From assembly GCF_000002425.4 (NCBI RefSeq), contig NC_037267.1, positions 6,027,396-6,091,395 on the forward strand: a stretch of 64,000 nucleotides of DNA, read 5' to 3'. How positions within the stretch are numbered: the stretch's first letter is position 1; every line of letters starts with the position of its first letter. The notes under the pieces were generated by a model. That model had not been told where the DNA came from and ran no database searches. It worked only from the letters and a program-made list of their open reading frames with translations. This document shows positions 16,254-61,971 of this stretch, piece after piece. The position numbers were made by a program, and so were the translations under genes. This DNA is from Physcomitrium patens (Eukaryota > Streptophyta > Bryopsida > Funariales > Funariaceae).

Positions 16254-16271
16254 TTGGGGCCACCAAAAATC

Positions 16272-17879
16272 TCATGAAATGAGCTCCAAAGTCTTGTTGA
16301 ATCCAAAATGTCCCGCAGCTGGAAAGTCGTGGCAAGATTGAAGTACTCGGAGTCGAGTTGGTCCTTTTGGGATATACAACTGCTCCTCAAAATACAGAAG
16401 ATCTCCCTCCACCTTAAACTTGTCATTATCGACACGTTGTTTGATGTCAAGAGCTATAGAATCCTCAATGGTCGCAGTACGTACCTCGCTGAGGAAGCCG
16501 TCATCGATAGTTGCAACAGTAGCAAAAATCCTAAATTTTTCTGGTTTCAACAATGTTGTACATTGTTGATCAAACGCTGCTTCTCCAGCCTTTGGCGCAA
16601 GATACGATCTCCTCGATAATACGTCAGATAATCCTTGCTGTTTTCCAGGGCGGTAGGTGATAATAAAGTCAAATCGTGATAGAGACATATTCCATCGAGC
16701 TTGACGACGATTCAAAATTCGAACTGTCATGAAGTACTCCAAATTCTTGTGGTCCGTATAAACAGTCACTGGATGTGCAACTCCTTCGAGGAAGTGACGC
16801 CACTCTTGGAAGGCATCCACTATAGCAAGCAGTTCTTTGTCATGGATCTCGTAGTTGATCTCAGCAGCAGAGAACTTCCGTGAATAGAACGCAACTGGGT
16901 GAAGCTTCTTGTCTATGCCCATCTGTGAAAGCACAGCTCCCAAAGCAAAATCTGAAGCATCGGTCTCTAAATAGAAAGCCTTTGTAAAGTCAGGGTGTAT
17001 CAAGATTGGAGCCGTAGTGAATGCCGTCTTGAGATCTTGAAATGCTTTTGCTACTTGTGATCCCCATTCGAGCTTGTCTTTGCTTGTTAGACGCGTGAGT
17101 GGTGCAGCAACTTGAGAATAATTCTTGATGAAGATCCGATAGAAGTTAGCAAATCCAAGAAAACACTGAACATCTCTAACCGTCTTCGGAACTTTCCAAG
17201 ATATAATTGCTTCTACCTTTTTTGGATCCATCTTCAAGCCCTCTGTAGTCGCAATGAAACCCAAAAATTCCATCTCATTCTGGTGAAATTGACACTTCTC
17301 CAACTTGGCGTAGAGTCCTCGTTCGCGTAGTTTTTCAAGAACCAAACAAACGTGCTTCTCATGTTCTTCTTCATTCTTGGAAAATATCAAAATATCATCC
17401 AGATAGATGACAACAAAGTCATCGAGGTACTCCCGAAAGATGTCATTCATCATATGCTGAAAGACCGCTGGAGCATTGGTAAGACCAAAAGGCATGACAT
17501 TGTACTCAAAATGGCCATACCTTGTACGAAAGGCTGTCTTCCATTCATCTCCTTCTTTGATTCGCACAAGGTTGTAGGCTCCTCTTAAATCAATCTCTGT
17601 AAAAATCCTTGTACGTCCAAGTTGATCTAAGAGGCCGGAGATCAAAGGTAAGGGATAGCGATTTTTCTTGGTCACCTTGTTGAGTCCTCGGTAGTCCACG
17701 CACATCCGCAGTGAGCCATCCTTTTTCTTCACGAATAGGATTGGTGCTCCAGCTGGCGACTTTGAATGTCGAATAAAATTCTTGGCTAGATTCTCATCGA
17801 TGTACTTCCGCAATTCTGCCAACTCTGTCTGCGATAGGTTGTATATTGGACCAAAAGGTGGTTGCGCTCCTTCCTCCAA
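16272..17879 (-). pseudogene. CV-A reverse transcriptase and RNase H (middle of pol)
   Basis: A 535-codon open stretch. RT motifs: KKKDGSLRMCVDYRGLNKVT (51-70), EIDLRGAYNLVRI (95-107), MPFGLTNAPAVFQHMMN (129-145), catalytic box YLDDIL (159-164), and KCQFHQNEMEFLGF further on. RNase H begins at about residue 305 with ETDASDFALGAVLSQ and continues with INYEIHDKELLAIVDAFQEW and YTDHKNLEYF. The start of the stretch is not a real start codon: the same frame continues upstream into protease across TAG 17928-17930. The end is TGA 16272-16274 inside the integrase zinc domain, where CGA (Arg) is the likely original codon. Confidence 0.93.
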
Positions 17880-17927
17880 GTCTATGGCGCAATCATATGG
17901 TCGATGTTCTGGCAGTATATCGGCGTT

Positions 17928-18590
17928 CTACTTCTGAAACACGTCTTCAAAATCCCTATATTGCTCTGGTATATTCGATGTTGAGATATTCTCGTCGCTA
18001 GTTGGAGCTGCATAAATGACAAATGGTGCGCCTTCCTTGGACGATCTTAGGAACGCTCTCGCTCCAATAAACATGGATTTCTTCATGTAGGTTCTACCAA
18101 CAGGTTTATTATTATTTTTTTCAGGAAATGTTATCCTTCGTAGCCTCCAATCAATGGACGGATTATGATCTTCTAACCAAGAAAGACCAAGGATAACAGG
18201 GCTTGATGGGGTTCTAATAATATTAAAAACAACGTGACTACTATGGTCCTTAAACACCACTTCTATAGGTTCTGATTCGTGGGTAACGTTGCCTGACAAT
18301 AAGGGTCGTCCATCTATCACCTCTACGTGAACAGGTTTGGACTTCTGTACTAAACGGATCTTGTGGCGTTTAGCAAACTCTTCATCTAAAAAATAAGTAG
18401 ATGCCCCCGAATCCAATAAAGCTAAAGTTTTTTGTTTTTGAGGGCCCAAAAACAAATGAATTGTAAAACAACGGGCAGGTTGGACAGAGAAGGAGGAACC
18501 TGATTGTTGTCGTGATATTAGATTGTCCAGCCGCACGGTTCCTACTGTGGCTGGGCGTCGTCGTTTTCCGGAATCATCGCACTTCTAGTC
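17928..18590 (-). pseudogene. CV-A retropepsin-like protease (5' part of pol)
   Basis: This frame is shared with RT and is offset by -1 from gag. The active-site motif LLDSGAST (near 18410) is intact. VEVIDGRPL and a C-terminal VILGLSWL flap-proximal motif follow. The frame is open upstream to about 18582, past the gag stop near 18541, so the two overlap by some 40 nt. The 18536 position is only the first GTG-type start in the frame. The frame ends with TAG 17928-17930 between FQK and N, probably once CAG. Confidence 0.85.
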
Positions 18591-19543
18591 TTGACAGGGT
18601 GCCAATTTTGCTTCTTTGGGCAATTTCCAACCTTGTGACCTTCTTCTCCACAGTACAAACATAACCCTTCCTCCATACGCCGTTTCTTCTCTGTTGGAGT
18701 AAGAGATCAGACATGCGTCGTGTCGATTTGCATGTCTGTTGCCTCCGAATGTGAGTTTAAGCTATTTGCAGACATAGTCACGTCGTAACGAGTCATTTGG
18801 TGTCTTGGACGTTGGTCTTGGCGACGCTGGAATAGGCAGTTGTCACACTTTGCAGCTTGGCTAATGGCTTCGTTGAGCGTTTGAGGATCAGGAAGAGATA
18901 ACAGCAAGTCCTTCACATCATCCTTCAAGCCCCAATAAAACTGACTCACCAACGCCTCTTCACCCCAATTAATGTCACTTGCCAATTTTCTGAAATCCGA
19001 GGCATAGACTGATGCAGAGCGTGTTCCTTGTCGTAGCGATCGGATCTTTGTTGTAGCCCATCGAACTTTATCATGCTCGCCAAATGCCTCTACAAACGCC
19101 TCCAAGAACGTTTCAAAGTTGCTCAGGATTGGCGATCGCTTCTCGAACAAGGGAGTAAACCAAGACAGGGCTTGTGCTGTAAGCAAGGTTCCAACAAGCC
19201 CAACACGCGCTTCCTCCGTCGGATAACGTTCGGGCTGTAAAATTGTTATCAACCTGATTTGGTTGACAAAACCTCGAAACTTGGAACGAGTTCCATCAAA
19301 CTTATCCGGAAGACTAACTCGAGGCTCCTTTCGTTATAGGACTACTCGATCTTGTTGAACTGAAGGTAGAACTGCTTCTTCTGGCGCAGAAGTTTGAGGC
19401 TGATATGCTTTAGATGGCGCTATCCCAGATGCTCCATTGTTATGGAGTCCTACCATGACTCCTTCGATCTCTGTTGTCCTATGTGACAATGAGGCAAGAG
19501 CATTTATGATGGCGTCTAGTTTGGATTCCAAACTTTCAGCCAT
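18541..19543 (-). pseudogene. CV-A gag
   Basis: The ATG at 19543 starts MAESLESKLDAIINALASLS. The frame continues, with TAA at 19334-19336 (between VVL and RKEP) and TGA at 18707-18709, into the zinc knuckle. The central part (19252-18760) is a Ty3-type gag domain (SLPDKFDGTRSKFRGFVNQ before it, then ALSWFTPLFEKRSP and FEAFGEHDK-like motifs). The CCHC zinc knuckle CLYCGEEGHKVGNC lies at 18621-18662 and is intact. The frame ends near 18541, where protease takes over in the -1 frame. Both internal stops are explained by CAA-to-TAA and CGA-to-TGA changes. Confidence 0.88.
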
Positions 19544-20683: not shown

Positions 20684-21446
20684 TGTGATTGATCGTTTTA
20701 CTTATTCCAAATTAATCTAATGGAAATAAATCATATAGGAGGATTCGAACATGGAGAATGACTAGTTGCTTAAGCGTTCATGTTAGGGTCACACAATCAA
20801 TTACCTCTTGAATGTATCATCTCTATTTCTAATATCTGAACACACAAAGAAACTATAATCTCCTCCTTCACCTTATCGGTCTCTTCCTTACAACAATTCA
20901 ATCATATCAATAACTGCTATTTCCACCAATATATTCACCCTCATAATCTCCAACTGTAATATTGTGCCCTCATAGCTTTCACCACACAATTACCATCATT
21001 CCAATCACTGGAATTCTTCACATAGAACTGCCATTCACATTACGGTGTTTCACACAAACACATACTCATTCTCTCTGCTAAACTACAATCAGATTTTAGC
21101 ATTCAATCTTTCTTCTTCTGAAATAATACCAATCACATTTCCATTCCATAATTCACTTCACAATATTCAGCAACTCTCAATCTTCTTATTCAAAAAAAAT
21201 AACAAACAAAAGAAAAGAGGTAGTACCAAGCTTACCCCGGCTCACAACTATCACAACGATGGCACCCTAATTAACTTCTACAATTTCTATATACTTTCCC
21301 CTGATTCTCCACATTCTAACCGTAATTCTATAATTAACCACTTTTAAGAACTAAATCACTCATCCATCTTCCTGAATTTCCTATTTTATGGACTATTAAT
21401 ATATTTTACTAATATCTTTCAAAAATGAATTAATATCTGTTCTACA
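20684..21446 (-). repeat. Gyp-D 3' LTR
   Basis: TGTGATTGATCG...CTGTTCTACA on the plus strand, closely matching 27319-28082. Two small ORFs within it are shadows. A polypurine tract (minus strand, ...ggagtggggcta) adjoins at 21447-21458. Confidence 0.85.
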
Positions 21447-21539
21447 TAGCCCCACTCCTATCTATGCAGCGTCCTCACAAACACTCAATTGATTCCTATC
21501 GTAAAATTATCTAACAAATCTCCACAAAATTATTAGTTC

Positions 21540-21835
21540 CTCTGGTCCACCCAATTAATCATTTGCTATATTATCTAATGTGTGTTCCATCAAATTTGGT
21601 TCCAATTGCACATCTTCTTCCTCTTCTTTCAGTCTATCCATCGACTCTTTCCTCAATTGATTTGATAGATCTTCATTATACTCACCCAGTACACGGACTT
21701 AAGCTTCCAAATTCAAGATCTGAACATCCCGAAGTTCCAATTGTTGTTGCTGCTGACTCATCCATTCTAGAATATCTTCAATCAATACTTCTAATCAATT
21801 CCTCACTGTTAACTCTTAACTCCAACTACTACTCT
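21540..21835 (-). pseudogene. Gyp-D: C-terminal remnant of the extra ORF
   Basis: The minus strand encodes IEDILEWMSQQQQQLELRDVQ and then a Glu/Asn-rich stretch, matching the end of the Gyp-F extra ORF (47.39-47.58 kb). The N-terminal and coiled-coil parts are missing. The sequence jumps at a shared 'aactctt' to the region just upstream of the ORF start. Confidence 0.65.
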
Positions 21836-21889
21836 CGAAAATACAAGAAATACAAGAAAATGGCACTCCAGCCAACCCAAAACAACACC

Positions 21890-22147
21890 ACAAAATGACT
21901 TTAACTGGTGCCCCACTCCTATTCTTTTACTACTTGGTAATAATGACAACATGTTATCCATACTGTCCATGAAAGGTAATCGAAAGTAATCTTTTTTGGT
22001 GGCCAAGTTAAGTTTCCAGAAATCCTGACAAATTCGGATTTTTCCATTCTTTTTCGGCACCATCACGATTGGAGAAATCCACTCACTATTTGGTACTGGA
22101 TAAATAAAACCAACTGTAAGAAGCTTGTCCAATTCCTCCTTCACCAT
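21890..22147 (-). pseudogene. Gyp-D: N-terminal part of reverse transcriptase
   Basis: Reads [20 protein letters not shown], then SEWISPIVMVPKKNGKIRIC, then QDFWKLNLATKKDYFRLPFM. These are RT blocks 1-2 of a Gypsy element. It stops just after DNML and joins sequence from beyond integrase near 21950. The catalytic YxDD box is absent. Confidence 0.8.
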
Positions 22148-22264
22148 GAAGGAATATTTAGGATTAAGGCGATGTTGCTTCTACCGTACCGATTTAGTGT
22201 TCTCCTCTAAAATAATATGATGCTAACAGACTTCAGAGGGAATATCTTTCAAATCATCAAGAAT

Positions 22265-22925
22265 CTACGTAAAAGCAGATTCATGATGCAAGAAAAATTC
22301 AATCCAATAGGTCAACTCTTGTTCCTTAATACCTTCATAGACCTTAATTGTCCGAGGTTCTGCTGTGGTCGCTAAGTTGATAGTTTGACATAAAGATGCA
22401 ATGACAATATTCTGTTTCAATCCCCGCACTGGTTTAAAGTCAATCAATAAGTTTGACATGTACGAAGTACTGAATCCTGTGTCCAGGGCACTAACATGGT
22501 ACACATCATACTTGGTCATCCAATCAGTACTAACATAATCCGAGTTTTCTGAGTCCGTCGGGTATATCAAGTATTCCCTCGGACCTCCACATTGGTACAC
22601 CACTCCAGGGTATAGTGCTGCCTCCACGGGCGCCTCCGTAATTGGTACTACTGCGTCGTCATCAGAGCTAAGCTCATCGTCTGACATTAATTCAGATGGT
22701 GGCAATTGAGACTCCCCATGATAGTGTACTGGGTACATTTGTATCACCATTTTATCTCCACCCTTGCCAATTGTCAAAGTATTCCCATCCCAATCGTTTT
22801 TGGCCTTTTCTTGATAAAGCTAGAGTCGTCTCAATAAAATTAGATACAATAAAGTCGAATGTTGTAACCGAAAGACAATATAGTTGATTTCATATGCAAT
22901 ACCGGTAAACACAGTTTGAACACTC
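22265..22925 (-). pseudogene. Gyp-D: C-terminal part of protease and spacer to RT
   Basis: After the solo LTR the frame continues TVFTGIAYEINYIVFRLQHS and LLYLILL, the region that usually leads to LGRPWL. A 170-codon acidic spacer (22777-22265; ELMSDDELSSDDDAVVPITE) leads to RT. The split site fits the 24.24-kb end exactly once the insertion and its 4-bp duplication are removed. Confidence 0.7.
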
Positions 22926-22928
22926 TGT

Positions 22929-24244
22929 TGTCGTATTACGTGTTGTCTTGTTCGGGAATACACTAGGTATCTGGCTGTGGAAGGTATAGTTATTTTTGCA
23001 AATAACAAAGAAACTCTAATAGGTTTTATCCATGTATGAAGAATATAATTGAAATATCAATTTCCAAGTATTTAAAAACACTCCTCATAGTCATTTTAAC
23101 CATACAATATTCCAATTGCTTTATTTCTTTTATAATTAAGTTGTTTTTGTTTTTCTTAACAAGCCCTAACCCTAGCCAGTGAGCTTTGACAAGCTGTAAC
23201 TTTTGATCCAACCATCCACTTAGTGTGAAATTTTGCACCCAAATACCAGTATAAGCCTTCTATATGCTCAGAAAATTTCAGCCCAATCCAACTTACAGAT
23301 TGCAAGAAAACGCCCAAAAACCGCACTGATGATACTTGGCCGCAACCTTGAAATTTGATGTAGAAACTCCAGAAGTGATTTCTCCTTTGTCAACCGTTAA
23401 CTCCAGCTCAAAATTGAATAGCCGCTTGATCTCCAAATCTTCTATTAACAAGCCAAAAATTACGTCGATCCAACTAGTAGATCTTTAGATATCACAGAAA
23501 TCCTATCCAACCCTAGACTGCCAACTTCTGACAACCCTTTGTACTAAAACCCAGATATCTCTTGATTGCCTCATTAGATTAACACAAATTTTTGTATACA
23601 CTTAGCACACCCAACTATCCAGACAATACCAAATTTTGACCCATAGAATGCTACACGACTTGCACAAACCGATTGAGAATGTAAACCATCAATGTTTTAT
23701 ATAAAATCCGAAACACCAAAATAAACACTGACTTTGAGCAGCAATTGCTCTCCCCTCACAAACCCTAATGAAACCAAACTAGTGATCTTGAAAAGAGCTT
23801 AAAGCTAACTCTTCGATCCAAAAACCCAATCTGAAAAAACCCCCGTATTTTGCCTTAGTTTTAGTGGCTGGAGGTCGGATTTCGACCCTGTCTCATATCC
23901 GGCCGACCCCCGGATATCAATCTAATCTATCCTAGTGGTTTTACAGCCCGATCCTACCCTCAACTTAACCCTAGTATCAACCATGCTAATAAATTATCTT
24001 TTTTATCCTTTTTTTACCATTTTATGGCCTTTCTAAGGCAATAAAAAAGTTACTACAACCTAGAAGGTAAAATTACTAACTAGTTTTTATCTACTAGCTA
24101 TTAAGTGAAGAAAATAGGATTAGAGGCTTTTATAAAAGCCTTGTAAAATATATTGAATGCTTGTTGAACCATGATAATAGAATATTAATTAAAATATCTT
24201 TTTTTTGTCATATTTTCACCATATAGTCATGTCACAACACGACA
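22929..24244 (-). repeat. Solo H-family LTR in Gyp-D
   Basis: 1316 bp, TGTCGTATTACG...CACGACA. TSD ctgt (22925-22928) against ccgt (24245-24248). It carries the family-specific block 'tctggctgtggaaggta' near 22970 and the block around 'tttcgaccctg' near 23880. No gag or pol sequence is attached, so it is a solo LTR left by recombination. Unlike other copies it has no long internal tandem array. Confidence 0.8.
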
Positions 24245-24248
24245 CCGT

Positions 24249-24745
24249 AAGATATCCATTGGTTTAACCCGACTATAATCTGCCATCCATAATACTAATG
24301 TCATGGATACTAAGTGTTCCAAATCTAAAGCATCCATTGTATCAACATTCATTAAATTGATGCTGGAACCACCATCCACCATAACACTCGAGATCATAAC
24401 ACTGTCAATCGAAACATCGATGGTTGGTGCACCTAGGTCAGGGTTCAAACTTACTTCACAAACTTCTTTATTACGGTACCTATGCCGTGTTAACAATGAA
24501 TTCAATATAGAACAATACTCTGGTGTAATCGCTAGAAGTTGCTTCATAAAAATAGAAGGCTGAATAGCGTCTAGATCCTTCAAAATATCATAGGATTCCA
24601 TATTTAGGATAATTCTCAATGCCCTCTTTCTTTTCATTCGTTTAAGTTTAACTCCATGAGGTAAGATATTCTTCTGCCTTAGACATGGAATTGGAACAGC
24701 AATCGGGGCTTCCTTGGAATTCCTGCCCCCGAGAGGATCTTTCAA
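24249..24745 (-). pseudogene. Gyp-D: N-terminal part of aspartic protease
   Basis: A 172-codon frame. SVMISSVMVDGGSSINLMNV is the retropepsin-like active site of plant non-chromovirus Gypsy elements, written here DGGSS. MADYSRVKPM follows just before the insertion point. The first 100 residues are basic and link to the gag zinc-knuckle region. Confidence 0.75.
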
Positions 24746-25032
24746 TGGATAGGACGTTTCTCAAAACTGTGTAGAGATCGAAACTGCTTGGAACGGAACC
24801 GAAGCCTCCGTAATTGGAACCTCATTGGGTTGTGCCACCGAGTCAGGTCTCATACTGGATACGAAGTCCGTAATAGGACCTGGATTAGATAGTCCTTTAA
24901 TTGGGTGAAATTGGTCTTTCGCATCGAGATTATCCAAATGTTGAATTGGTCCTTTTTTCTTTTGCTGACTCCAGATAAGAATGGCTTGGATACATTCTAT
25001 CCGATTTATCGGAGAATCTTGAGGACCTCGAT

Positions 25033-25849
25033 TTATCTCTTCAATTTTTTCTTGGCTTTGGATCTGCTGATCCCAATTATTGAAATTGAACGGAGCATTA
25101 CATTGTTAATACGTATGCCCTGATTGCTTGCAATTCCTACAAACTGGCACATAATCATCATTCGCTCTGGGATTGAAACATTTATTGGCATAATGACCAA
25201 TCTGTCTGCAACAAAAACAATGAAGTGATCTTCTTGCATCTCCATCAGGCATATTGGATGTCTCCATCGGTATATACTTACTAGGCTTGTTCCATGTAGG
25301 GTTAAGAAATGTTCCTGGTTGTTCCGTTGGTACTGAGGAAACTTGCTTTGATGACGTTGGTGGAGCATATTGCTGATATCTGTACTACTCCTTACCGTAG
25401 TTCTGTGGGTTTGATGAAGATCCCTGATTAAAATTGAAACTTTGAAAGTTATTGAATGCTCGATTTTGTCGATTAAATCGATTTCCATTCCATCCAAACA
25501 TATTTCCCATTTGTACTTGATTGACATCCCATTGAGTTGGTGGGATCATGGTCTGATTACTAAATTATTGTTGTTGTCTTTGCTAATTTCAATAATTTGT
25601 TGTTAAGTGCTTTCCTCCGTAAAATGTACATTGACCCATTATTTGTGAGGGTGAGGGGTATTTTGTTACAAAATGACCCTGGCCCTTACAATTACTGCAC
25701 CATACATTGGTCCTAGTATTGGTAGGCTTTTGCCTCTTCTCCTTATCTTTGGCCATATTGACAGCCATTTCTTCCATTTTCTTCGTCAAATTCAATAACA
25801 AGGTTTCATTGGAATCTTTTAGAGTTGGCATTATTGGTATCTCTGCCAT
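25033..25849 (-). pseudogene. Gyp-D: gag zinc-knuckle region
   Basis: 25849-25589 (86 codons) contains WCSNCKGQGHFVTKY, a CCHC knuckle with its last Cys changed to Tyr, and a second imperfect one (CTFYGGKHLTTNY). Downstream, between 25280 and 25130, are further Cys/His clusters in other frames (for example CNYCRQIGHYANKC-like). Several knuckles in a row are common in this group. Stops and shifts break the frame. Confidence 0.65.
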
Positions 25850-25858
25850 AGTTAACGC

Positions 25859-27058
25859 TTATTGTTGATACAAAAAATATGGAGCATATGTTGTTGTCAC
25901 GTTTGGTGGTATAGTTTGCAATAGGCTGATATTAACTGGCCCCTGAATATTGGTATTGGAATTAGCCCCTGTTTCTAACATTTGTGGATAACTACCCACT
26001 GATTCGTTCCAAGTCGGATTTTGATATCTACTTTGAACTGGAATCATTGTGGCTCCCATAGTTAAAAACTGATCATAATGGCATTCCTGCCAAACCTTGG
26101 CTCTATTAAGGGACGCAGCCACCGTAACAGTTTGAGCTTCTTTTACAAACATTTTTAGCTCTGGTGGGTGCAAACCATTGATTAATATGGATAAGATGAA
26201 TGCCTCCGACATTTGGTGATTTGGCCACTTACTAAGTATATCAGCCACTCGACCATAGTACGATTCCACTGCCTCCCCTAGGATCATTTTGTTGTTCATT
26301 AATCTCTCTCAAAGGCGGTCTTCAAAATCAATTGGCCGAAAATGAGATAAAAATGTATTCTTCAATGCTTCTCAATTCGAGAATTGACCCACTGGTTGAC
26401 AATTGTACCATTCAAACGCCATGTCTTTTAAGGTCAATGGCAGCCATCGCAACCAAATATCTTCAGTTCTGCCATTATTAGCTATACATGTTGTAAGAAA
26501 CTAAGACAAATATTGATAGGGATCCGCATCCGAAAATCTCCAAAAAGTAGGTAGTCGCACGACACTAGTTGTACGATCACCTACTGCACCCATTTGTATT
26601 GCAATCGGAACGGCTGGTCCTCCTGACGCCATTGATTTTCTTGTTCCACTAAACTCCATTTTAAAATAATCTTTGCTTTCCCTTATTCTAATTTTCGAGC
26701 TCTCAGTGCTCCTCGATTTACTGTTATTTTTTACAAATAATTTTATTGGTTGAATTGCAGGTGAAAACGTCAAATTTTGAAATATAATATAGTTATCTTT
26801 ATTGGCGACTAATTTGTGCCAATCTGAAGAGCCACTATTGCTCGTTTCAGCAGTACCCTTTACTAGAAAAATACCCAATGGAGTACCAAATTCTTCTACA
26901 CCTCCTTCTCTTTCAGTTAACGGCCTCAAGATTTCCACTGGAATGTTAACAAAATTTCCCGTGAGTGTTCTTGGCAATTTTTCTAACGATACATATGACT
27001 GCAGAATTAACAGTCTGTCTAGTTCTTGATATGTTTGGATGCGTCGATAAGCTTGCAA
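25859..27058 (-). pseudogene. Gyp-D: gag capsid region
   Basis: Two open pieces, 27058-26501 (185 codons) and 26299-25859 (146 codons), with a damaged stretch between. The second has typical gag features: MNNKMILGEAVESYYGRVAD, ILSKWPNHQMSEAFILSILI and NGLHPPELKMFV. These match the retrotransposon gag domain pattern (…F.NGL…). It is followed by a Gln/Pro-rich linker to the knuckles. The first piece holds the N-terminus, with a Ser/Lys-rich stretch and PTFWRFSDADPYQYLS at its end. Confidence 0.75.
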
Positions 27059-27297
27059 CCATGGTTTAATCCAATTCTATCGATGCTTCTTTTTAAGATT
27101 ATGTTCTTGCTCCTCTCTAAGCAAGTTCCTTCCTTATGCTCTTTTCTATCTTTCTCTCAACTGATTTATTTTCCTCGATGCAATGCTCTCGTTCTTATTA
27201 ACCATAATCTTGCTTCAAACACTACTAAAATCGTCTTCCATTGCCAATTTTCTCACACGTTTGGTAATTAATTCCTAATACTCAAAGGTATTATCAC

Positions 27298-27315
27298 TCC
27301 CCGTCAGCGACGCCA
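27298..27315 (-). other. Gyp-D primer-binding site
   Basis: The minus strand reads TGGCGTCGCTGACGGGGA three bases after the 5' LTR. It is close to the complement of the 3' end of tRNA-Asp (TGGCGCCGTTGCCGGGGA), with three mismatches. Only 18 nt match, the normal length, in contrast with Gyp-F. Confidence 0.65.
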
Positions 27316-27318
27316 AAA

Positions 27319-28082
27319 TGTGATTGCTCGTTTTACTTATTCCAAATTAATCTAATGGAAATAAACTTGTATTCGGGGATTTGAACACAAAGAATGACTA
27401 GTTGCTTAAGCGTTCACGTTAGGGTCACACAATCAATTACTTCCTGAACATATCATCTCTATTTCCAATATTTGAACACACAAGGAAACTATAATCTCCT
27501 CCTTCACCTTATCGAACTCTTCCTTACAACAATTCAGTCATACCAATAACTGCTATTTCCACCAATATATTCACCCTCATAATCTCCAACTGTAATACTG
27601 TGCCCTCACAGCTTTCAGCACACAATTACCCTCATTCCAATCACTGGAATTCTTCACACAGAATTGCCATTCACATTACAGTGTTTCACACAAACACATA
27701 CTCATTCTCTCTGCTGAACTACAACCAAATTTCAGCATTCAATCTTTCTTCTTCTCAAATAATACCAATCACATTTCCATTCCATAATTCACTTCACAAT
27801 ATTCAGAAACTCTCAATCCTCTTATTCAAAGAAAATAACAAACAAAAGAAAAGAGGTAGTACCAAGCTTACCCCAGCTCACAACTATCACAACGATGGCA
27901 CCCTAATTAACTTCTACAACTCCTATATACTTTCCCCTAATTCTCCAGATTCTAACCGTAATTCTGTAATTAACTGCTTGTAAGAACTAAATCACTCATC
28001 CGTCTTCTTGAATTTTCTATTATATGGACTATTAATATATTTTACTAATATCTTTCAAAAATGAATTAATATCTATTCTATA
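27319..28082 (-). repeat. Gyp-D 5' LTR
   Basis: 764 bp, TGTGATTGCTCG...CTATTCTATA, the last CA having become TA. It is followed by the TSD gctcg. Confidence 0.85.
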
Positions 28083-39806: not shown

Positions 39807-40173
39807 TGTCACAAATATATACATTTACTTCAATAGTTACTTATATGATTAGGTAGAAATAGGTAAATATAGATTAATTTCATAAAGTCTTTTAGAAAAG
39901 CTTCTTAGAAGCTTCATAGATGTGGTTTTGACTTTAGATGTCTTTGTAGATTAGAAACTTGGCAAACAAGCTAATTATGTGTTCATAACTTGTCAAACAA
40001 GTTAACTCCATGTAGTAGCTTGTAGAACAAGCTAACTGTGTGGTGCATACATAGATAATTTGCCTTGCAAGTTAAGACATGGAAATAGCAAAGTCAACAT
40101 GCTTTGGAGGTCCTATAAAATATCGCTATGTAGCTCCTAATTATAAGTACATAAAGAGGCAAGAGTGAAGCCT
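39807..40173 (+). repeat. CV-C 5' LTR, 3' end deleted
   Basis: Matches the 3' LTR as far as 'gcaagagtgaagccttctt' (about 40170). It then passes directly into leader sequence ('taagtggattactccact'). The final roughly 170 bp of the LTR and the primer-binding site are missing. Confidence 0.75.
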
Positions 40174-40339
40174 TCTTTAGTAAGTGGATTACTCCACTTC
40201 TATTGTTGTATTTGAAGGTTGCGGACTACCCATCTTTTAAATAAAAAAATCTTATTTTTTAACAATGATCTTTCTTTAAAGAAAGTAGATTATTCCTCTT
40301 TGTAGAAATTTTTATTAGAGGTTGTGAATTACCCTCCTC

Positions 40340-46236: not shown

Positions 46237-46449
46237 TATCATGGACATATACATTTACCTCAATAGTTACTTATATGATTAGGTAGAAATAAATAAATAT
46301 AGATTAATTTCATAAAGTCTTCTAAAAAAGCTTTGTAGAAGCTTCATAGATGTGGTTTTGACTTTAGATGTGTTTGTAGATGAGAAACTTGGCACACAAG
46401 CTAATCACATGTTGGTAGCTTCAAGAATAATTTAACTCTATATAGTAGC
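46237..46449 (+). repeat. CV-C 3' LTR, first part
   Basis: TATCATGGACATATACATTT, aligned with 39807 onward. It is interrupted at 46449 by Gyp-F and continues at 55129. Confidence 0.8.
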
Positions 46450-47240
46450 TGTGATTGTCATTTTACTTATTCTATAATTCCTTCCACAATAAACATGTAT
46501 AGGAAAATTTGAACACAGCAAAAGACTAAGTGCATGAGTTTCACTTATTAGGGTCACACAATTAACTATATTCCGAACCACTAAAATACTAAAAAATACT
46601 ACAATGCTTCCTCCCAGTAACAATACTCCTTCATCAATTGATAACCACAATGTACAACCCTGCACTCTCAAAAGACCGCTCAAAACTCAATAAATTCCAT
46701 CCAACACCAAGAATAACAAACTTCACTCCAACCAATCTGAATTCACAGAATTCTTATAATCATAGACATCCTTTGTTGAAACATACACACACAACTCTCA
46801 ATAAACAACAATCATAATCTTCCATCCATAATCAATCTTCCAATAACTTCTCATATAATTCAATCACTCAGTACTCCAATTACATAATCAATAATTCATA
46901 AATCAATCTCTGATTTATTCCACACACTCACTTCTAAGTATTCACAAACTATCCATTACTCTTCAACAACAAAGAAAACAAAAAAAAAATAAAAAATAAA
47001 AACAAAAACAAAGAGGAGGTACCAAGCTTAACCCCGGCTCATGACTATCACTGTCTAGCCCCCCGACAAACTTCTACAACTCCTATATAATTGCTATTAA
47101 TTTCCAGATTCTAACCGTAATCTTATAATAATCACTTTTAATAACTGAATCAATCATCTGTCTTCCTAAACTAACTGTTCTATGGACTATTTGTTTATTT
47201 TACCAATATCTTACAAAAACAAACTAATATCTATTCTACA
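46450..47240 (-). repeat. Gyp-F 3' LTR
   Basis: 791 bp, nearly the same as 54350-55123. The next bases (47241-47253, minus strand ...ggagtggggcta) are the polypurine tract, identical to that of Gyp-D. Confidence 0.87.
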
Positions 47241-47379: not shown

Positions 47380-49022
47380 TCCACCGATTTTGGTTCTAAA
47401 TTCAAATTCTCCACCTCTTCTAATCCGTCTATCGATTCTTTCTTTAGCTAGTTTGATAGATCTTCATTATACTCACCCAATTCATGGACTTGAGCCTCCA
47501 GTTTCAAGATCTAGGCATCACGAAGTTCCAACTGATACTGTTGCTAACTCATCCACTCTAGAATATCTTCAATTGACACTTGAGATTGACTTCTCACTGT
47601 TAACTCTTCCGTCAATTTTGTCACCTCAACTTGTAAAACTTCGATTTCAAACCTCAACTTTTCTATTTTACATCTAGATTGGTCACTCAATACTTCTTTC
47701 TCTTTCGTCAATAACTTAGCCTTGTCTCCTTCCGCCTGCAACTGGCATTTGAGTTTCTCCCATTCCAAATCCCATGTCTTGTGATTCTGGATCAATTCGT
47801 CCTGTTGTCCTTCCACAATTCGTAAGATGTGTTTTTTTTCTTTCGTCCAAGACTCATATTGGTGAACCCATTTTTGCTCCAATACCAGCTTGGATTTTCC
47901 AATTTCATTTATCATCCATTCTTGCTCTTCAATTCTTTGATTTTGCTTTGATATCACCTTCTTACTGTCCTCTAAATCCCGTTTGCTACTGCCTTCTACA
48001 TCCAATGTTTGCACCATACAATGTATTTATGAAATATGCTTCAATAAAATATTCTTAAGAAGTATTCCTTTGGATAATTGACCTTGTGGAAATGCCAACT
48101 GATTAATATCCATCGAAATTGGGGTTTCATTCTCCTCCTCTACTGCTAAACAAATTCCAACCCATTCTGATTCAATAACTGGAACGACTCCTTCTGCCAC
48201 TGTACGACTTCACTCTCCAATTTTATATATTACATCCACGGTATTGATATTTTATACCAACAAATTTCGTTCTCTCTATGGAGACACTAGCACTGGTACA
48301 TGACTGTCCTCTACTGGCGTTGTTTGATGCAATGTGTGCACGATCACAGCATATACATAATTAAAACAAAGCAAATAAGTGAATTTCTCCAATTTCTACT
48401 TGGCTCCTATCTCCGAATGAATACAAGTGACTACGTATGTAGCCTATTTGAACACCATCCCTTCCAATGCCCCTACCGCTGCATACAATAACCGTTTGGA
48501 CATATATGTGGGATGTCAGTACAATCCTAACCGCTTCACTAAAAAACGAAACCATTCCACGAGTTTTGGTGAAATTACCTCAGTAGTCCGCCAACCTTGG
48601 CTTCTCTCAAAGGCCGACATACCTTCCTTGAAATATCTTCCTAGATTGAAGTTGCTTGAGTCATCAGCTCCTATCACAATTTCTCCAATGAGAAGACACA
48701 GCACTTTTTCTAAGATTGTTCTATCAATCCCGATAATTTGTCCTTGTACCACACTCGATCCATCCTTCGGGTCGTAATTCGTAATATATTCCTCCACTAA
48801 TGACACATTAATTGATGGTAAGTAATTTGACAGGTGTAAAAATTGGAACAACTGTGCACTCCAAAAGTCTTTTATTCTTTTCGACGTCCAGCAGATATCC
48901 AATTTCATCGGCTCCATATTGGTAACAATTATCACAGAAGGTGGTTTTGATGCGCGTCTAGCTCTGACATTTTGGCCATTGTCCTCTTTATTTGTAGCTC
49001 GCTTTGTACTTTCAATTGCCAT
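47380..49022 (-). pseudogene. Gyp-F extra ORF downstream of integrase, coiled-coil protein
   Basis: Starts at ATG 49022 (MAIESTKRATNKEDNGQNVR), open to 48516 and then, after stops, 48017-47544 and a tail to about 47385. That is some 540 codons in all, sense with the element and between integrase and 3' LTR. The first part (about 60-168) looks globular: TSKRIKDFWSAQLFQFLHLS, then VVQGQIIGIDRTILEKVLCL, similar in feel to capsid-like or plant transposon-associated domains, but I cannot name it. 48017-47600 is a strong coiled coil rich in Glu, Lys, Gln and Leu, ending EDILEWMS. Gyp-D keeps the tail of the same ORF. It lies in the env position but has no signal peptide or membrane segment. Confidence 0.6.
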
Positions 49023-49480
49023 GATGCTCCCTCTCTCAAACTCTTAACTAGAACTACTACGCTCAAAAACGTAAGAAATACAAGAAGTAGCAATCTCAGA
49101 AAACAACTAAGAATGACAATATAGAATGACCTCTAACTGGTGCCCCACTCCTATTCTCTTACTATCGGTGATCATGACAACATATTACCCATATTGTCCA
49201 TTTCTCACCTCCGTCCCATCTGACACATTAATAATTACTAACTATCTTTTCAGTTGCTTCTACACCCTAACGCACTTATACCATATTTAGGTCTACCTTG
49301 TATCCATTCGAAGTCACTCCTCAAAAAAAAAATGAAAATCCATCTCGAGTTTTATGTATTATATAAACGTAATTGGTTCCCGTTAATGCGAGTACTAAAG
49401 CGATGGCCTATAAAATCCTCCAATTGAACAGACCTATTGGAAAAACCTTCAATCATCCGATACGGCCTATGCCAACAAAC

Positions 49481-50683
49481 TTAAAAAATTTTCGAAAAAT
49501 AATTAAATCGGCTATCGTACAGTAATACCAAATCATTGGGCATAAAAATCTTTGGACGTAGTTTACTATCATAGTAACTCTTCCTCCATTGTTGAATTGC
49601 CTCTATGTAGAAAAGAGTTGTAGCCCATATTTCATCCAATTCTTCCAATTTTGCCAACCGAGAATGTAATGACTCTTTGTCATTGAGTCGTTTATCCAAG
49701 GCAATCCATAAACTTTGAACCTCTAACTCGATGGATAAAATTACCTCTTGACCGTAAACTAGTTGAAACGGAGTAGAGTTGGTAGTTACTTTATATGCGG
49801 TGCAATATGCCCATAAAGCCGCAAAGAGTTTGGGCTCCCAATCGATACCTGTCCCCGAAATTGTCTTAGTCAAGACCTTGCACAAAATTCCGTTAGTCTT
49901 TTTCATTTGTCCATTAGCACGAGGATGATATGGAGTGATTTTTTGATGCTTAATCTCATATGTGTTCGTCAAGGCAGCTATGGTAGCATCTAGGAAATGG
50001 GTGCCGCGATCGCTAATCAATTCCTTCGGACACTCAAATCGAGTTATAATATTCTCGTATAGAAACGTAGCCACCATATTGGCATTATCATGGCGGGTAG
50101 TAAGAGCCTCTGCCCATTTTGTTACATAGTCCGTGGCGACTAAAATATATCACTTCTGGCCAAGTTTTGATGTTGGTGCGATGGGACCGACAAAATCAAT
50201 ACCCCATTTTTTGAATGGTGCATATGTCAAGATTAGAACTAATGGTATGGTGGAAATACCTGTTGGTCGACCAATTTGTTGATAGGGATCACAACGATGA
50301 ACGAATTGGTGTGCATCAAAAAACATTGTAGGCCACCAATATCCGGCCATTAAAGCCTTGCGAGCAGTACTATCTCTCGTAAAATGACCACCACAACTAT
50401 CCAAATGGCAACCTTTGAGAATCGATTGTACTTCACTTGAAAAGATACAGCGACATAAAATGCCATCTTTACCTTGTTTATACAAAGCATCGCAAATCAT
50501 TGTATATGGGGTACTCTTTAGAATGAGTCGCTTCTTAAGCTTCTCAGTGAAAGTCAGCAAAAAAGTGTGGAAGGTCAGAAATTGAATGATTTTACTATAT
50601 TCACGGAAAATCACATCCACCACAAATAATTCGACGTCAGGAAGAGCATCCGAAACAAGCTCGTTGCCGAGAATATTAGACAA
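49481..50683 (-). pseudogene. Gyp-F integrase
   Basis: 50683-50150: zinc domain (H...H, then a C-x2-C of which one Cys is CDPYQ) with GYWWPTMFFDA, and the first Asp in KWGIDFVGPI. 50077-49481: second Asp in ELISDRGTHFLDA, third position ANGQMKKTNG where the usual Glu of ERTNG is Lys. Then LWAYCTAYKVTTNSTPFQLV and YGQEVILSIE. The catalytic Glu is lost and a stop lies between the two pieces. No chromodomain follows. The WAYxTxYKxTT...TPFxLVYGxE string is typical of plant non-chromovirus Gypsy integrases. Confidence 0.85.
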
Positions 50684-50722
50684 CCGGGATAAATGATCAG
50701 CATTGGCATGTTTCTTCCCAAG

Positions 50723-51016
50723 TCATACGACAATCGTAAAATTAAACTCTTGTAAGAGTAAGATCCATCGAGCAATGTGCCCACTCAATTGAGGCTTATT
50801 AATCATATATTTGAGGCCATCATAATCCACATAAAAAATAAATGGATACCCAAGCAAATAGTACTGAAATTTTTGAACTGAATATATTATACCCAACGCT
50901 TCTCGTTCAGTAGTAGTGTAATTGTGTTCAGTAGCCACCAATTGCCGATTGGCATAATAGATAGAATGATTCAGATCCTTGTCATTCTTCTGACTTAACA
51001 CCGATTCAATAGCCAC
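50723..51016 (-). pseudogene. Gyp-F RNase H
   Basis: 97 codons: SVLSQKNDKDLNHSIYYANR, then NYTTTEREALGIIYSVQKFQ, then YYLLGYPFIFYVDYDGLKYM. These are the classical Gypsy RNase H motifs. The preceding catalytic Asp region lies upstream in a broken frame near 51040-51060. Confidence 0.8.
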
Positions 51017-51059
51017 ATTGGATGCATCAATGTATAGATGAAAGGGCTCTGTCTAACGA

Positions 51060-51932
51060 GGAGCCACCAATATTGGTGCAGAGACCAATTTTGACTTCAA
51101 TGCTTCAAAGACTATGATACACTCCATGGTCCAGATGGAACTAGTCCTATCTCACGGAGGTTTTTTTAGTAAGTTCGTTAAAGATTGACAAATAACTGCA
51201 AACAAATGAATGAATCTTCCATAATAACTGACATGGCCCACAAATCCATGAGCATTAGAGACCGTCTCTGATAGGGGCAAGTTCATTATATACTGCACTT
51301 TGTCAGGATCTATAGCAATACCATGGCTGGAGACGATATGTCCTAATAATTTACTGGACGGAACACCAAATTGATTCTTCTCCGAGTTCAATGATATTCT
51401 AAACTTAACGCACCGAGCCAAATATTTGCTCAAATAATTAAGATGATCATATTTTGTACTGAATGCACAAAAGTAATCTAAAAAGATCTCCATAAACGAC
51501 CGGATATAGTCTTAGAAGGCCTGAGTCATCACTCTCTAAAATGTGGTTGGGATATTATATAACCCAAAAGGCATCATGCGATAAGCAAATGTGCCTCAAT
51601 TCGTAGTAAAGGTTGTCTTAAGCTGGTCTATCGTTGCAAGTTGAACTTGATTATATCCGAAAAATCCATTGAGAAACAAATAACATTCGTGACTAGTTAC
51701 GGCATCCAATATACTATCTGTGAAGGGCAACGAAAAGTAATCCTTCTTGGTGGCTATATTAAATTTCCGGAAATCTTAACAAATGTGGATTTTTTCATTC
51801 TTTTTTGGCACCATCATGATTGGAAAAATTCACTCGCTATTCGATATCAGGTAAATAAAACCAATCGCAAGAAGCTTGTCTAATTCCTCCTTTACCATGA
51901 GGGAATATTTAGGATTAAGGCGATGTTGCCTA
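51060..51932 (-). pseudogene. Gyp-F reverse transcriptase
   Basis: Begins with [20 protein letters not shown] at about 51895 and downward, matching Gyp-D. It continues with stops through MMPFGLYNIPTTF and the catalytic region near 51495-51450, where FLDYFCAFS replaces the usual YLDDFxVFS (second Asp lost). Open piece 51493-51152 ends with RFIHLFAVICQSLTNLLKKP. Stops at several places. It joins directly to the desaturase fragment. Confidence 0.8.
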
Positions 51933-52323
51933 TGTCAGCTACATAGTGATCCTCTTTAAAACTTTGGAGAAGTCGATCCAGCAAATGCAACAAAATGGGC
52001 CTCGACTTCATCGGATTCCTATAGTACTCCCCTAGCAAAGGCTTGACAACTTCGATTGCCTCAATTAAGTGATAATGAGGAATCTGGGGAAACAATTGGT
52101 GCACAATATGTGTACCAATATCATGATGAATGATGTTAAAGATCCCGTAATCCCTATCAATTGTGGACAGCCCACCACGCATGTAATTCCACTCCTTGCC
52201 ACGGTACCAAGGAACCTTCTTTTTGTAACTATGATGGTGCATATACGTTATAGTGTCTAGTCACACTACATTTACCTAGTACGGCACCACATACAGCTTG
52301 AGTATCCACATCAGTCCCACCGC
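51933..52323 (-). pseudogene. Captured omega-3 fatty-acid desaturase fragment, C-terminal part
   Basis: On the minus strand: VGLMWILKLYVVPY, stop, then [60 protein letters not shown], then [13 protein letters not shown]. These are diagnostic for plant omega-3 desaturases of the FAD3/FAD7/FAD8 group. The third His box, normally HVxHH, reads HIVHQ, so one iron ligand is lost. The segment has no introns although the plant genes do, so it came from spliced mRNA. It is fused at about 51933 to Gypsy sequence upstream of RT, and continues across the solo LTR at 54170-54272. It is sense with Gyp-F. Confidence 0.9.
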
Positions 52324-54169
52324 TATCATAATGTGTGAAGTCTTGCTTGAGAATGCTCCGGGCACCTGGGTGTAGAAGGAAGAATAGAAATTTCGATAAC
52401 AAAATCCTAAATAGAATACTAACAATGCTCTAATTAGACTATAATAATGGTAAACAAACGGAATCAAATTCAAAACAACTCAAAGAAATTTCAAACAAAC
52501 AATAAAATTCTTAAAGAAATATTAGAATGATCACAAATTTTACTCAAATATATGTCAATTCAACCTTAATTTAATTCTAGTTAAAACCCTATTGAATTTT
52601 AGTCAACTTTAGACCAAACCTAATTAAATCTTAAACCTTAATAATTCCTAAATCCTAAGTCAAATCCTAAACAAATCTTAAATTAAACCCTATTCCAAAC
52701 CCTAAACCCTAAACCAACCCTAAATCAAATCCTAACCAAATCCTAATCCAAACCCTAAATCAAACCCTAACCGAACCTTAAATCCTAATCCAAACCCTAA
52801 TTCAACCCTAAACTCTAATCCAAATCCTAAACCCTAAACCAAACCTTAAATCAAACCCTAACCAAACCCTAGTCCAAAATCTAATCCAAATCCTAAATCA
52901 AACCCTAATCCAAACCCTAATCCAAATCCTAAACCCTAAACTAAACCTTAAATCAAACCCTAACCAAACCCTAATCCAAACCCTAACCAAATCCTAAATC
53001 CTAATCCAAACCCTAATCCAAATCCTAATCCAGACCCTAAACCGAATCCTAGCCAAATCCTAACCAAACCCTAAACCCTAATCCAAACCCTAAACCGAAT
53101 CCTAGCCAAACCCTAATCCAAATCCTAGTAATTCCTATGATAGATTTAAACCTCAATATGTAATGAATAAACCGTTGATCTCAATTCAAAATTTGCACAC
53201 TTCTTAAAAATCAAGTTCAAAACGAGTAAAAATATTTTGAAAAGGATCAAAGTTACCAAATTGACGAAAACCTCAAAAATGTGTTTGGGTATTAGCTGGC
53301 CTTCTTCTCCAATCTTGTTGCCAACCTTCCAGAGCCAATTTCTCTTCTTTGCGCCGTTCGATTGGTTTTAAATTTCTTACACATATAGAAAAACAAGTTT
53401 AATATCCTCTCACATAAGTTTTACTCCAATCCAACTAGTAGATTGCATGAAATCTTAAAAACCCTCACTGGACCTAAAATTCTACTTTTTGAGACCTTGA
53501 CTCACTTAAACCTCAATATCTCTCAGTTCAACCATTAGATCAAGCTCGAATTCACAACATGTATTCAATACAACTATAACCCAAAAAACTTCACCCGTAG
53601 ATCTACAACAAAACTCTCGAAATCACTCAAAACATAAATCCTATTTTATTTCATAAAATCCAAATCATCCGAAAAAAAAACTCAACTTTGCAAAGCTCTT
53701 ACAAATTCATATCAACTCCAAATCACCCAAAATCAATGCTTATAGAAATTCTATCCAACCTTCTCTCCAATCCCACTCTTTGATCTGCCAAAGAGTCTTG
53801 GAGTCGTCGTTGAGACTTGGTTTTGTGCCTCAGGGTCTAATTTCGACCCTGATTCATAACCGGCCCTCTCCGGGTATCAATATCTAGTTTTTCTAAGTAA
53901 CTTTTTTCTAGAATTTACTCTTAACTTTCTTCTAAAGATTCCTATATCATTTTTTTTCCCAATCTACTTTGATTTGCCTTACTTATGGTACTACAAAGTA
54001 AGTAGAAGTCACCTTTCTAAAAGGCAGTATTGATACCTTTTAATTTTTCTACCCCTTTGGCTATTAACTATATTTCTAAGATGATTTTTTCTAATACTTT
54101 GAACTAAGATCTCTTAAATTATAATAATCTCCATACTCTTTCACCTATTAATTGTATTACATCACGACA
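52324..54169 (-). repeat. Solo H-family LTR with telomere-like internal array, inside the desaturase fragment
   Basis: 1846 bp, TATCATAATGTG...CATCACGACA with a perfect 4-bp TSD ccgc at 52320-52323 and 54170-54173. Removing it and one TSD restores the desaturase reading frame exactly (...LSFA then VGLMW...). It is longer than other copies because of the array at about 52560-53130. Confidence 0.88.
52560..53130. repeat. Degenerate telomere-like array (CCCTAAA/CCCTAATCCAAA type)
   Basis: Mixed units 'aaccctaa', 'ccctaaaccctaa', 'aatcctaatccaaa' without strict periodicity. It occupies the same place within the LTR as arrays with other units at 37.02-37.45, 38.57-38.99 and 60.72-61.31 kb, so it is a part of this repeat family and not a former chromosome end. 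Confidence 0.75.
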
Positions 54170-54272
54170 CCGCGAAGCTGAGAGCTACAAGGCCTGCAAG
54201 CATTGCTGCCCAGCATGTTGTAGAAGTGATCTCATCCTTCGCCTCGCTACGAACAAATAGGTCACTCTTAGA
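54170..54272 (-). pseudogene. Captured omega-3 fatty-acid desaturase fragment, N-terminal part
   Basis: The minus strand encodes SKSDLFVRSEAKDEITSTTC, then WAAMLAGLVALSFA, the region before the last transmembrane part of plastid-type omega-3 desaturases (the SDLF...K(D)xxTSTxCWxAM pattern). No stop codons. It begins immediately beside the tRNA-Asp copy at 54273. Together with 51933-52323 it covers about 165 codons of the desaturase C-terminal half. Confidence 0.85.
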
Positions 54273-54343
54273 ATCGTTGTAGTATAGTGGTAAGTATTCC
54301 CACTTATCACGCGGGTGACCGAGTTTGTTCCCCGGCAACGGTG
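54273..54343 (+). other. Full-length tRNA-Asp-derived sequence at the primer-binding site of Gyp-F
   Basis: The plus strand reads as a plant tRNA-Asp(GTC) from its first to its last base. The acceptor stem TCGTTGT, D-arm AGTATAGTGGTAAGTA and acceptor 3' side GCAACGG match; CTA (for CCA) at 54344-54346 is followed by three bases and then the LTR at 54350. Differences from the family consensus are mostly G-to-A or C-to-T, with one base missing in the T arm. The anticodon region reads TTATCAC instead of CTGTCAC. In element sense only the first 18 nt should be present. It is not a functional tRNA gene. Confidence 0.85.
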
Positions 54344-54349
54344 CTAAAA

Positions 54350-55123
54350 TATGATTGTCGTTTTACTTATTCTACAATTCCTTCCAAAATAAACTTGTAT
54401 AGGGAAATTCGAACACATGGAAAGACTAAGCGCATGAGTTTCACTTATTAGGATCACACAATTAACTGTATTCCGAACCACTAAAATACTAAAAAATACT
54501 ACAATACTTCCTCCGAGTGACAATACTCCTTCATCAACTGATAACCACAATATACAACCCTGTACTCTCAAAAGACCGCTCAAAATTCAATAAATTCCAT
54601 CCAACACCATGAATAACAGACTTCACTTCAACCAATCTGAATTCACAGAATTCTTGTAATCACAGACATCCTCTGTCGAAACACACATACACAACTCTCA
54701 ATAAATAACAATCATAATCTTCCATCCATAATCAATCTTCCAATAACTTCTCATATAATTTAATCACTCAGTACTCTAATTACATAATCAATAATTCATA
54801 AATCAATCTCTGATTTATTCCAAAGATTCACTTCTCAGTATTCAGAAACTATCCATTACTCTTCAACAACAAAGAAAACAAAAAAAAAAAACAAAGAAGA
54901 AGCATCAAGCTTAACCCCGACTCATGACTATCACAATCTGGCCCCCCGACAAACTTCTACAACTCCTATATAATTGCTACTAATTTCCAAATTCTAACCG
55001 TAATCTTATAATAATCACTTTTAATAATTGAATCAATCATCCGTCCTCCTAAACTGACTATTCTATGGACTATTAGTTTATTTTACCAAGATCTTACAAA
55101 AACGAACTAATACCTATTCTACA
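54350..55123 (-). repeat. Gyp-F 5' LTR
   Basis: 774 bp, TATGATTGTCG...CTATTCTACA, partner of 46450-47240. The junction 'ctaaaa|TATGATTG' parallels 'ccaaaa|TGTGATTG' of Gyp-D. Confidence 0.87.
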
Positions 55124-55128
55124 CTAGC

Positions 55129-60647: not shown

Positions 60648-61971
60648 TGTCATATTATGTAGCGTTTAGCTTGAAAATGCATCAGGCACCTGGCTATGGA
60701 AGATAAAAGAAAAATTATAATAACAAATAACTAATAACAGTAATTGACTTTGGTAATAGTAATCAGTAGTAGCAACCAATAATCAATAATAGTGACCAAT
60801 AACTAATTGCACTAGCCAATAACCAGTAGCGGTAATCAAAAATCAATAATAGTAATCAATATTCAATATGAATAATTAGTATCTACTAGTAGTAACCAAT
60901 AATTAGTAGTGATAACTAAAAATCAATAGCAATAATCAATATTTAATAGCAATAATCAATATCTAATAGCAAAAACCAATATCTAATAGTAACAACCAAT
61001 TTTCAATAGCAATAACCAATATCCAATAGTAATAACCAATTTCCAATAGTAATAACCAATATCTAGTAGCAATAACTAATATCCAGTAGCAATAACCAAT
61101 ATCCAGTATCAATAACCAATATCCATTAGCAATAATCAATATCCAGTAATAATAACTAATATTCAGTAGCAATAACCAATTTTTAGTAGCAAAAACCAAT
61201 ATCAAGTAGCAAAAACCAATATCTAGTAGCAATAATCAATATTCAATAGCAAAAACCAATATCCATTAGCAATAATCAATATTCAATAGCAAAAACCAAT
61301 ATCCTTCAAAAATATAGAACTTTAGCACTCAATTTCTTCCAATCCAATTGTTGGATTGAGCTCAAAATTTCTTAGGAGCAAGATAATATTCTTAACTTCA
61401 AATAGATGATAATCACAAAAATGTGCTTGGATGTGGATCAGCCTTCTTCTTCAATCTGAATGCTGAATTTCCAATACCAATTTCTTGACTTTGTAAAGCT
61501 CTTACAAACTCATTACAAATCCAAATCACACAAAAACAATGCTCATCAAAATCCTATCTAATTTGCTTTCAAATCCCACTCTTTGATGTGCCAAAAAATC
61601 TCGAAGTTCTCATAGGTGCTCAGTTTTATGCCTTAGGATCTGATTTCGACCCAGGTTGATAACCGACCCTTCTTAGGTATCAAATTTTGTCTCTTTTAAA
61701 TTAATGCTTGTTAAAATCAACTCCTAACTTCTTCCTATAAAATGCTCATATTCTTTATTTTCCTAATCTACTTTATTTTACCTTATTCATGGTTCAACAA
61801 AATAAATAGAAGGCCATTTGTAAAAGGCAGTATTGATACTTTTTAGTTTTACTACCTTTTGACTATTAATTATATCTCTAAGATAATTTTTTCTAATACT
61901 TTGAACTAAGATCTCTTATATTATAATAATTTTTATACTCTTTTACCTATTAGTCGTCTTACATCACAACA
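60648..61971 (-). repeat. Solo H-family LTR in Cop-K, with a 20-bp-unit array
   Basis: 1324 bp, TGTCATATTATG...CATCACAACA. Perfect 4-bp TSD ccat at 60644-60647 and 61972-61975. Between about 60720 and 61310 lies an array of roughly 20-21-bp units, consensus near 'aataaccaatatccagtagc'. Confidence 0.88.
60720..61310. repeat. Minisatellite, about 20-21-bp unit
   Basis: Nearly 30 imperfect copies, most regular at 61000-61290. The 89-codon minus-strand frame over 60963-61232 (repeating 'LLLDIGYCYWILVIA') is only the translation of this array. Confidence 0.9.

Follow-up and report, generated by a model that had tools for sequence, protein, structure and literature searches.

The window analysed here is a 64,000-nt stretch of the genome of the moss Physcomitrium patens (NCBI RefSeq assembly GCF_000002425.4, contig NC_037267.1; C15:6027396-6091395), and the genome searched with it comprises 470 Mb in 101 contigs. 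On its minus strand lies a long terminal repeat (LTR) retrotransposon that carries, between its 5' LTR and a broken reverse transcriptase (RT), the complement of a complete mature tRNA-Asp followed by an intronless piece of a host omega-3 fatty-acid desaturase (FAD) gene. We interpret this arrangement as a host-gene capture made by RT in which synthesis overran the usual stop in the primer tRNA, and as a whole we give this interpretation a probability of roughly 0.78. The host segment sits between two LTRs flanked by a target-site repeat with 4 of 5 nt alike, and a paralog of the flanks preserves the empty site.

The desaturase fragment and its likely parent gene

Read along the minus strand, the desaturase piece begins at 54272, ends near 51930 and comprises 490 nt, or 163 codons, close to the approximately 165 codons that an initial annotation of this stretch had placed in sense orientation between primer site and RT; identity, position and orientation have all stood up. 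A protein search with a 110-aa portion (51930-52260) returned 202 of 204 candidates at E<=0.001, the best at 2e-50, far above chance. Among the best 120 of 833 matches, the best full-length relative is the P. patens chloroplast omega-3 FAD (79%, E 1e-53), and the next named relatives include Sphagnum, Ceratodon, Marchantia and Adiantum. The Pfam score of 23.8 bits falls under the cut-off of 29.7 because the piece spans no more than profile positions 180-247 of 253; a PDB search gave no relative, and an NCBIfam search gave weak matches only, far below its cut-offs. Two TGG codons have become stops, a histidine of the HVVHH motif is lost and the reading frame, as taken from the open reading frame (ORF) listing, is not in frame with RT, so that the chimera is now without plausible protein function.

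The nearest gene in the genome, on C14, is identical at 447 of 490 bases (43 differences), with identities of 90.8, 93.5 and 91.0% over the three exon pieces and 90.1% over the 5' piece. Inside the matching stretch this gene has two GT-AG introns of 116 and 141 bp, and both are exactly missing from the fragment, which identifies the donor as a spliced mRNA. The initial annotation had inferred such an origin and had recommended a search for the parental gene and for introns in it, and the C14 gene supplies both in the same genome. With two paralogs used for polarisation, 33 of the differences are assigned to the fragment and 2 to the parent, with 8 unresolved. The blocks of the whole C14 gene suggest six introns; the omega-3 FAD genes of chia, perilla and Arabidopsis have seven, in identical phases (PMC5774782).

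On sequence comparison, the C14 gene is the likely parent. The genome protein search yielded 13 rows of desaturase matches, some of them exons of one gene, and element context was examined around the C14 gene alone among these matches. An intronless parent was considered and rejected: the candidates on C26, C13 and C3, with frames of 439, 416 and 448 codons, reach only 67-70% identity to the DNA of the 3' piece, and the intron-bearing C14 gene was preferred because of its 91-94%. Separately, these long intron-free frames (L002, L003, L004) stand beside intron-bearing paralogs and may be old retrocopies. A further locus, L005 (G000:C4:18758895-18759197), is 64% desaturase-like with one TAG in a 157-codon frame and is possibly another pseudogene. 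The P. patens protein P0122 matches genome locus L008 in separate pieces, with identities of up to 100%.

The fragment is split by 1.85 kb of other DNA. An intron was rejected as the explanation, since the parent is continuous there and a second copy of the interrupting sequence, with the same two ends and its own 4-bp repeat (CCAT), lies at 60648-61971. The interruption has TG...CA-type ends, though on the left TG has become TA, and is flanked by a CCGC repeat; when the flanks alone are joined, the desaturase frame runs on. The earlier proposal of a solo LTR with a ccgc duplication, inserted after the capture, is thus correct.

A complete primer tRNA beside the LTR

The initial annotation had recognised a primer site next to the LTR, and it is there (18 nt, 54329-54346); what had been overlooked is that it forms only the end of a complement of the whole tRNA-Asp, including CCA. 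ARAGORN, run over the whole window, calls a single tRNA, a tRNA-Asp at 54273-54344, and in Rfam the interval 54273-54343 matches model positions 1-71 of 71 with 28.8 bits (gathering threshold 29; E 0.00065). For a second related element in the window, Rfam gives no match with E<=1 in the region of the primer site (27000-27600). Viral and prokaryote collections contained no tRNA-Asp reference; the reference was built first from fragments in plant small-RNA papers and then from the genome's own genes. A genome scan with a 31-mer at <=3 mismatches, which more decayed copies would escape, located tRNA-Asp at 16 places, namely 14 identical genes, one variant gene and the present copy. CCA is encoded in none of these 15 genes, and position 58 is A in every one of them (the numbering is our own count). 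Against the mature tRNA of the 14 identical genes with CCA added, the copy is identical at 64 of 75 positions and differs by nine C/G transitions, the loss of one C and a single transversion, A58 to T; its CCA has decayed to CTA. The first 32 nt of the tRNA match at 29/32 here and at 18/32 at the next best site in the window.

A DNA search with 54174-54420 gave 40 matches: the window itself, two desaturase genes and 37 other copies of the element. All 37 copies end at query positions 75-97, and the primer site ends at 92, so in these scored copies no more than 5 nt beyond the primer site are matched; in the 10 that were displayed, the sequence departs from the tRNA past the primer site. Could the match simply be a pre-existing tRNA gene or pseudogene? 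ARAGORN does call a tRNA gene there, but the CCA (as CTA) is encoded in 0 of 15 genes of the genome, the complement adjoins the LTR at the distance seen for ordinary primer sites, and the other 37 scored copies lack it, all of which makes this explanation very improbable.

An alternative route to an intronless fragment is that a long interspersed nuclear element (LINE) pasted a desaturase retrocopy into an already integrated element, gag and protease being lost. The absence of introns suits such a retrocopy. However, the fragment begins and ends within coding sequence, no poly(A) was seen, and the fragment is joined directly to the primer tRNA at one end and to RT at the other. A full tRNA next to the LTR likewise speaks against this route, which we regard as the least probable of those considered here.

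Two joints and a proposed course of events

Both joints fall on short stretches common to the sequences that they connect. At the RT joint the parent reads ...CACGGGCAACATCGTTTAC, the element copies ...AGAGGCAACATCGCCTTAATCC and the chimera ...ATAGGCAACATCGCCTTAATCC, with an overlap of 10 nt relative to copies such as L020-L025 and of 9 nt relative to the window's second element. A DNA search with 51860-52323 gave 42 matches (the window, four desaturase exons and 37 element copies); the copies align from query 387-393 onward in 36 cases and from 363 in one, so that element DNA is shared from 51931-51937 leftward in 36 and from slightly before in one. At the tRNA joint the tRNA complement ends ...CAACGAC, the parent reads ...CTACGACCCTAAG and the chimera ...CAACGATTCTAAG, an overlap of 5 nt, ACGAC, which are the last nucleotides of the complement (54273-54277) and so correspond to the 5' end of the tRNA, one base having decayed here. 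Under a simple model, the chance of an overlap is 3e-5 for at least 9 nt and 0.005 for at least 5 nt. Template switching had been suggested for this element, together with an alignment of its breakpoints, and the stretch that parent and element copies share at the RT joint is consistent with it.

The course of events would then be as follows. A Ty3/Gypsy, Tat-like element would have been reverse-transcribed in a particle that also held spliced desaturase mRNA. The minus strand would have copied U3, integrase and part of RT before jumping to the desaturase mRNA at the 10-nt identity, and since this switch lies inside RT, gag, protease and the element's own primer site would never have been copied. 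Plus-strand strong-stop DNA would have passed the usual stop at nucleotide 58 and copied tRNA-Asp to its 5' end. The minus strand, because it had left the element inside RT, would hold no copy of the primer site; lacking this partner, the tRNA copy would have annealed by its run-off end, through 5 nt, to the desaturase minus strand. The resulting 5'LTR-tRNA-desaturase-RT-IN-3'LTR molecule would finally have been inserted by integrase. It is the order of events, the co-packaging and the making of the joins by RT that we infer here, whereas the component parts, the parent gene, the loss of its introns, the overlaps at the two joints, the LTRs with their target repeat and the uniqueness among scored copies are observed. 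In human immunodeficiency virus type 1 (HIV-1), plus-strand strong-stop DNA normally stops short of 1-methyladenosine 58 (m1A58) and anneals through its 18 nt to the copy of the primer site on the minus strand; an unmodified primer tRNA is copied to its 5' end, in a product said not to serve (PMC13191261).

The sole transversion in the tRNA copy falls at A58, the m1A stop, and would fit a misreading of m1A58, weak evidence by itself. Misincorporation at m1A58 is reported to be ubiquitous in nuclear tRNAs of Arabidopsis (PMC11658184), and A-to-T was the main m1A error type in a study of chemically reduced m1A (PMC11019740).

Points that weigh against a capture with tRNA overrun

Several observations count against this course of events. 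The joins themselves could have been made by host enzymes, with microhomology-mediated end joining linking incomplete extrachromosomal cDNAs, one a plus-strand strong-stop DNA extended by the tRNA copy and the other made of desaturase and RT sequence, before integrase inserted the product. The shared stretches of 5 and 10 nt suit polymerase-theta-type joining as well as they suit template switching by RT. On the other side, the join lies on the last nucleotides of the tRNA, as expected if a run-off end was used directly; this is not decisive, and we consider end joining unlikely, if the strongest of the rival accounts.

The base facing nucleotide 58 is a second point. Of the 10 displayed element copies, 7 have T directly after the primer site and 3 have A, the chimera's base, and the best LTR match is one of these 3. 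Because 3 of 10 ordinary copies have it, the chimera's base at A58 may be inherited. Plant tRNA-derived fragment reads across nucleotide 58 give A 468, U 338 and G 109 (PMC6852985; the total of 915 reads is the sum of four rows, the fourth being 289, A), and one study found no misincorporation by wild-type HIV RT on untreated m1A (PMC11019740). As an observation on the family itself, L045, L049 and L050 differ from L046-L048 and L051-L054 at the base after the 18-nt primer site (A versus T); this base faces nucleotide 58, and one-base overruns onto m1A58 with misreading may be recorded there.

The third point concerns age and copy number. Decay has gone further in the tRNA copy than in the LTRs (9/47 C/G sites, p 0.014), perhaps through the copy's density of methylatable sites, and the genome DNA searches scored 40 of 1170 candidates for the RT joint and 40 of 1566 for the LTR side. 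If the capture were older than the insertion, a gene-carrying lineage would have retrotransposed repeatedly, with this copy the survivor. The excess decay of the tRNA copy would fit such a history, as would the fragment's transversions, 8/490 against about 7/778 per LTR. This difference is not significant, however (p 0.29), and C/G transitions are alike, at 25/252 on the fragment lineage and 22/265 per LTR copy (p 0.54), so that with fragment and LTRs similarly decayed, capture and insertion are not distinguishable in age. Moreover, no second chimera occurs among the scored matches of the genome protein and DNA searches. We therefore hold an older capture to be improbable, slightly more so than end joining. 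The initial annotation had proposed a gene-carrying retrotransposon and a search for further copies with the same arrangement; the capture in an LTR element stands, but with only one copy among the scored matches there is no sign of a multiplying family, and the capture would most simply be a one-off, now broken.

Structure of the element and its surroundings

The features are collected in Table 1. The LTRs are 90.8% identical, with a Kimura two-parameter distance of 0.078 over 778 columns (44 transitions, 13 transversions), and the uninterrupted paralog of the flanks, at 39870-40180, is an empty site that shows the 5-bp target repeat. The domain order RT-RNase H-integrase is that of Ty3/Gypsy elements; the RT match is weak because RT is broken, and the integrase region has one in-frame stop. 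Downstream of integrase, the extra ORF matches Transposase_32 weakly (E 0.0017, 18.7 bits, cut-off 45); it has 7 relatives, 4 of them named and all 4 from P. patens. The element carries a tRNA-Asp primer site; such a site and an extra ORF after integrase are features of the Tat lineage, and within Ty3/Gypsy the element may be Tat-like. Since the interval from primer site to RT is fully occupied by the tRNA complement, the two desaturase pieces and the solo LTR, gag and protease are gone, as had been claimed.

Table 1. Features of the chimeric element in window coordinates
Feature	Position	Strand	Basis and remarks
Target-site repeat	GTAGC 46445-46449, CTAGC 55124-55128		4/5 nt alike, one mismatch
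3' LTR	46450-47240	minus	791 bp; LTR-pair comparison, TG...CA ends
Extra ORF region downstream of integrase	47544-49043	minus	second ORF: weak Transposase_32
Integrase and RNase H reading frames, broken in places	49481-51052	minus	ORFs, Pfam
Broken RT	51152-51920	minus	ORFs; Pfam RVT_1 E 0.017, one piece only
10-nt stretch GGCAACATCG common to element copies and desaturase parent	51921-51930	minus	putative first switch point
Desaturase fragment, 3' part	51930-52323	minus	covers three parent exons in part, lacks two introns, has two stops
Solo LTR, other family	52324-54169		1,846 bp; CCGC repeat 52320-52323 and 54170-54173
Desaturase fragment, 5' part	54170-54272	minus	match to parent gene
Complement of complete mature tRNA-Asp including CCA	54273-54346	minus	ARAGORN, Rfam, genome tRNA genes
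5' LTR	54350-55123	minus	774 bp; LTR-pair comparison

The second related element (20684-28080) has an ordinary primer site and some 5 kb of sequence ahead of its RT joint; most of its pol is deleted and the extra ORF region is missing, with 21811-21970 matching 49039-49201 and 21960-22169 matching 51711-51920. On the minus strand at 15066-19333, Ty3/Gypsy gag-pol-like reading frames stay open over long distances and apparently belong to a younger element. The two solo LTRs of one family contain different tandem arrays (52650-53127 and 60774-61302), degenerate CCCTAAA-like in one and with a 20-bp unit in the other.

Comparison with known systems

Often a captured fragment is all that points to host-gene capture by an LTR element. 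In the moss element the parent, its introns, the primer tRNA and the two joints can all still be read, which allows one capture to be reconstructed step by step. That LTR elements capture host segments and undergo abnormal template switching is established, and such capture is not rare; the main text of the review concerned does not use the word tRNA (PMC13317346). No published report of a full primer-tRNA copy at a capture joint was found in a search that covered PMC7472051, PMC5371799, PMC13191261 and PMC13317346 in part, which is weak evidence, as subscription journals lay mostly outside it. We tentatively propose, at somewhat less than even odds, that overrun of the primer tRNA past m1A58 is itself a route of host-gene capture, in which strong-stop DNA barred from the normal transfer finds host cDNA instead. 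If this is so, LTR elements would acquire genes more often where their primer tRNA is incompletely modified, and a full tRNA copy in a genome would be the signature of such an event. The case also suggests that tRNA modification is linked to how gene-carrying elements arise. A genome-wide test follows directly, namely a search for full primer-tRNA complements beside LTRs.

Maize Bs1 is likewise an LTR element with internal, partial host coding segments, but it holds three of them (H+-ATPase and two other gene pieces) in a transcribed and translated chimeric gene (PMC13317346), whereas the moss element has one broken segment and a full primer tRNA at its 5' joint. The Veju TRIM and BARE-2, also attributed to abnormal template switching, are again chimeras of co-packaged RNAs (PMC13317346); the moss element differs in having a spliced host mRNA as partner and in leaving the second strand transfer visible. 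The closest parallel to the overrun is the HIV-1 product P1, formed on unmodified tRNA-Lys3, in which strong-stop DNA likewise passes nucleotide 58 to the 5' end of the tRNA. P1 is an in vitro product, with overextension also in methyltransferase-mutant cells, and is not used for normal transfer (PMC13191261), whereas the moss case is an integrated genomic copy that would have made a different transfer.
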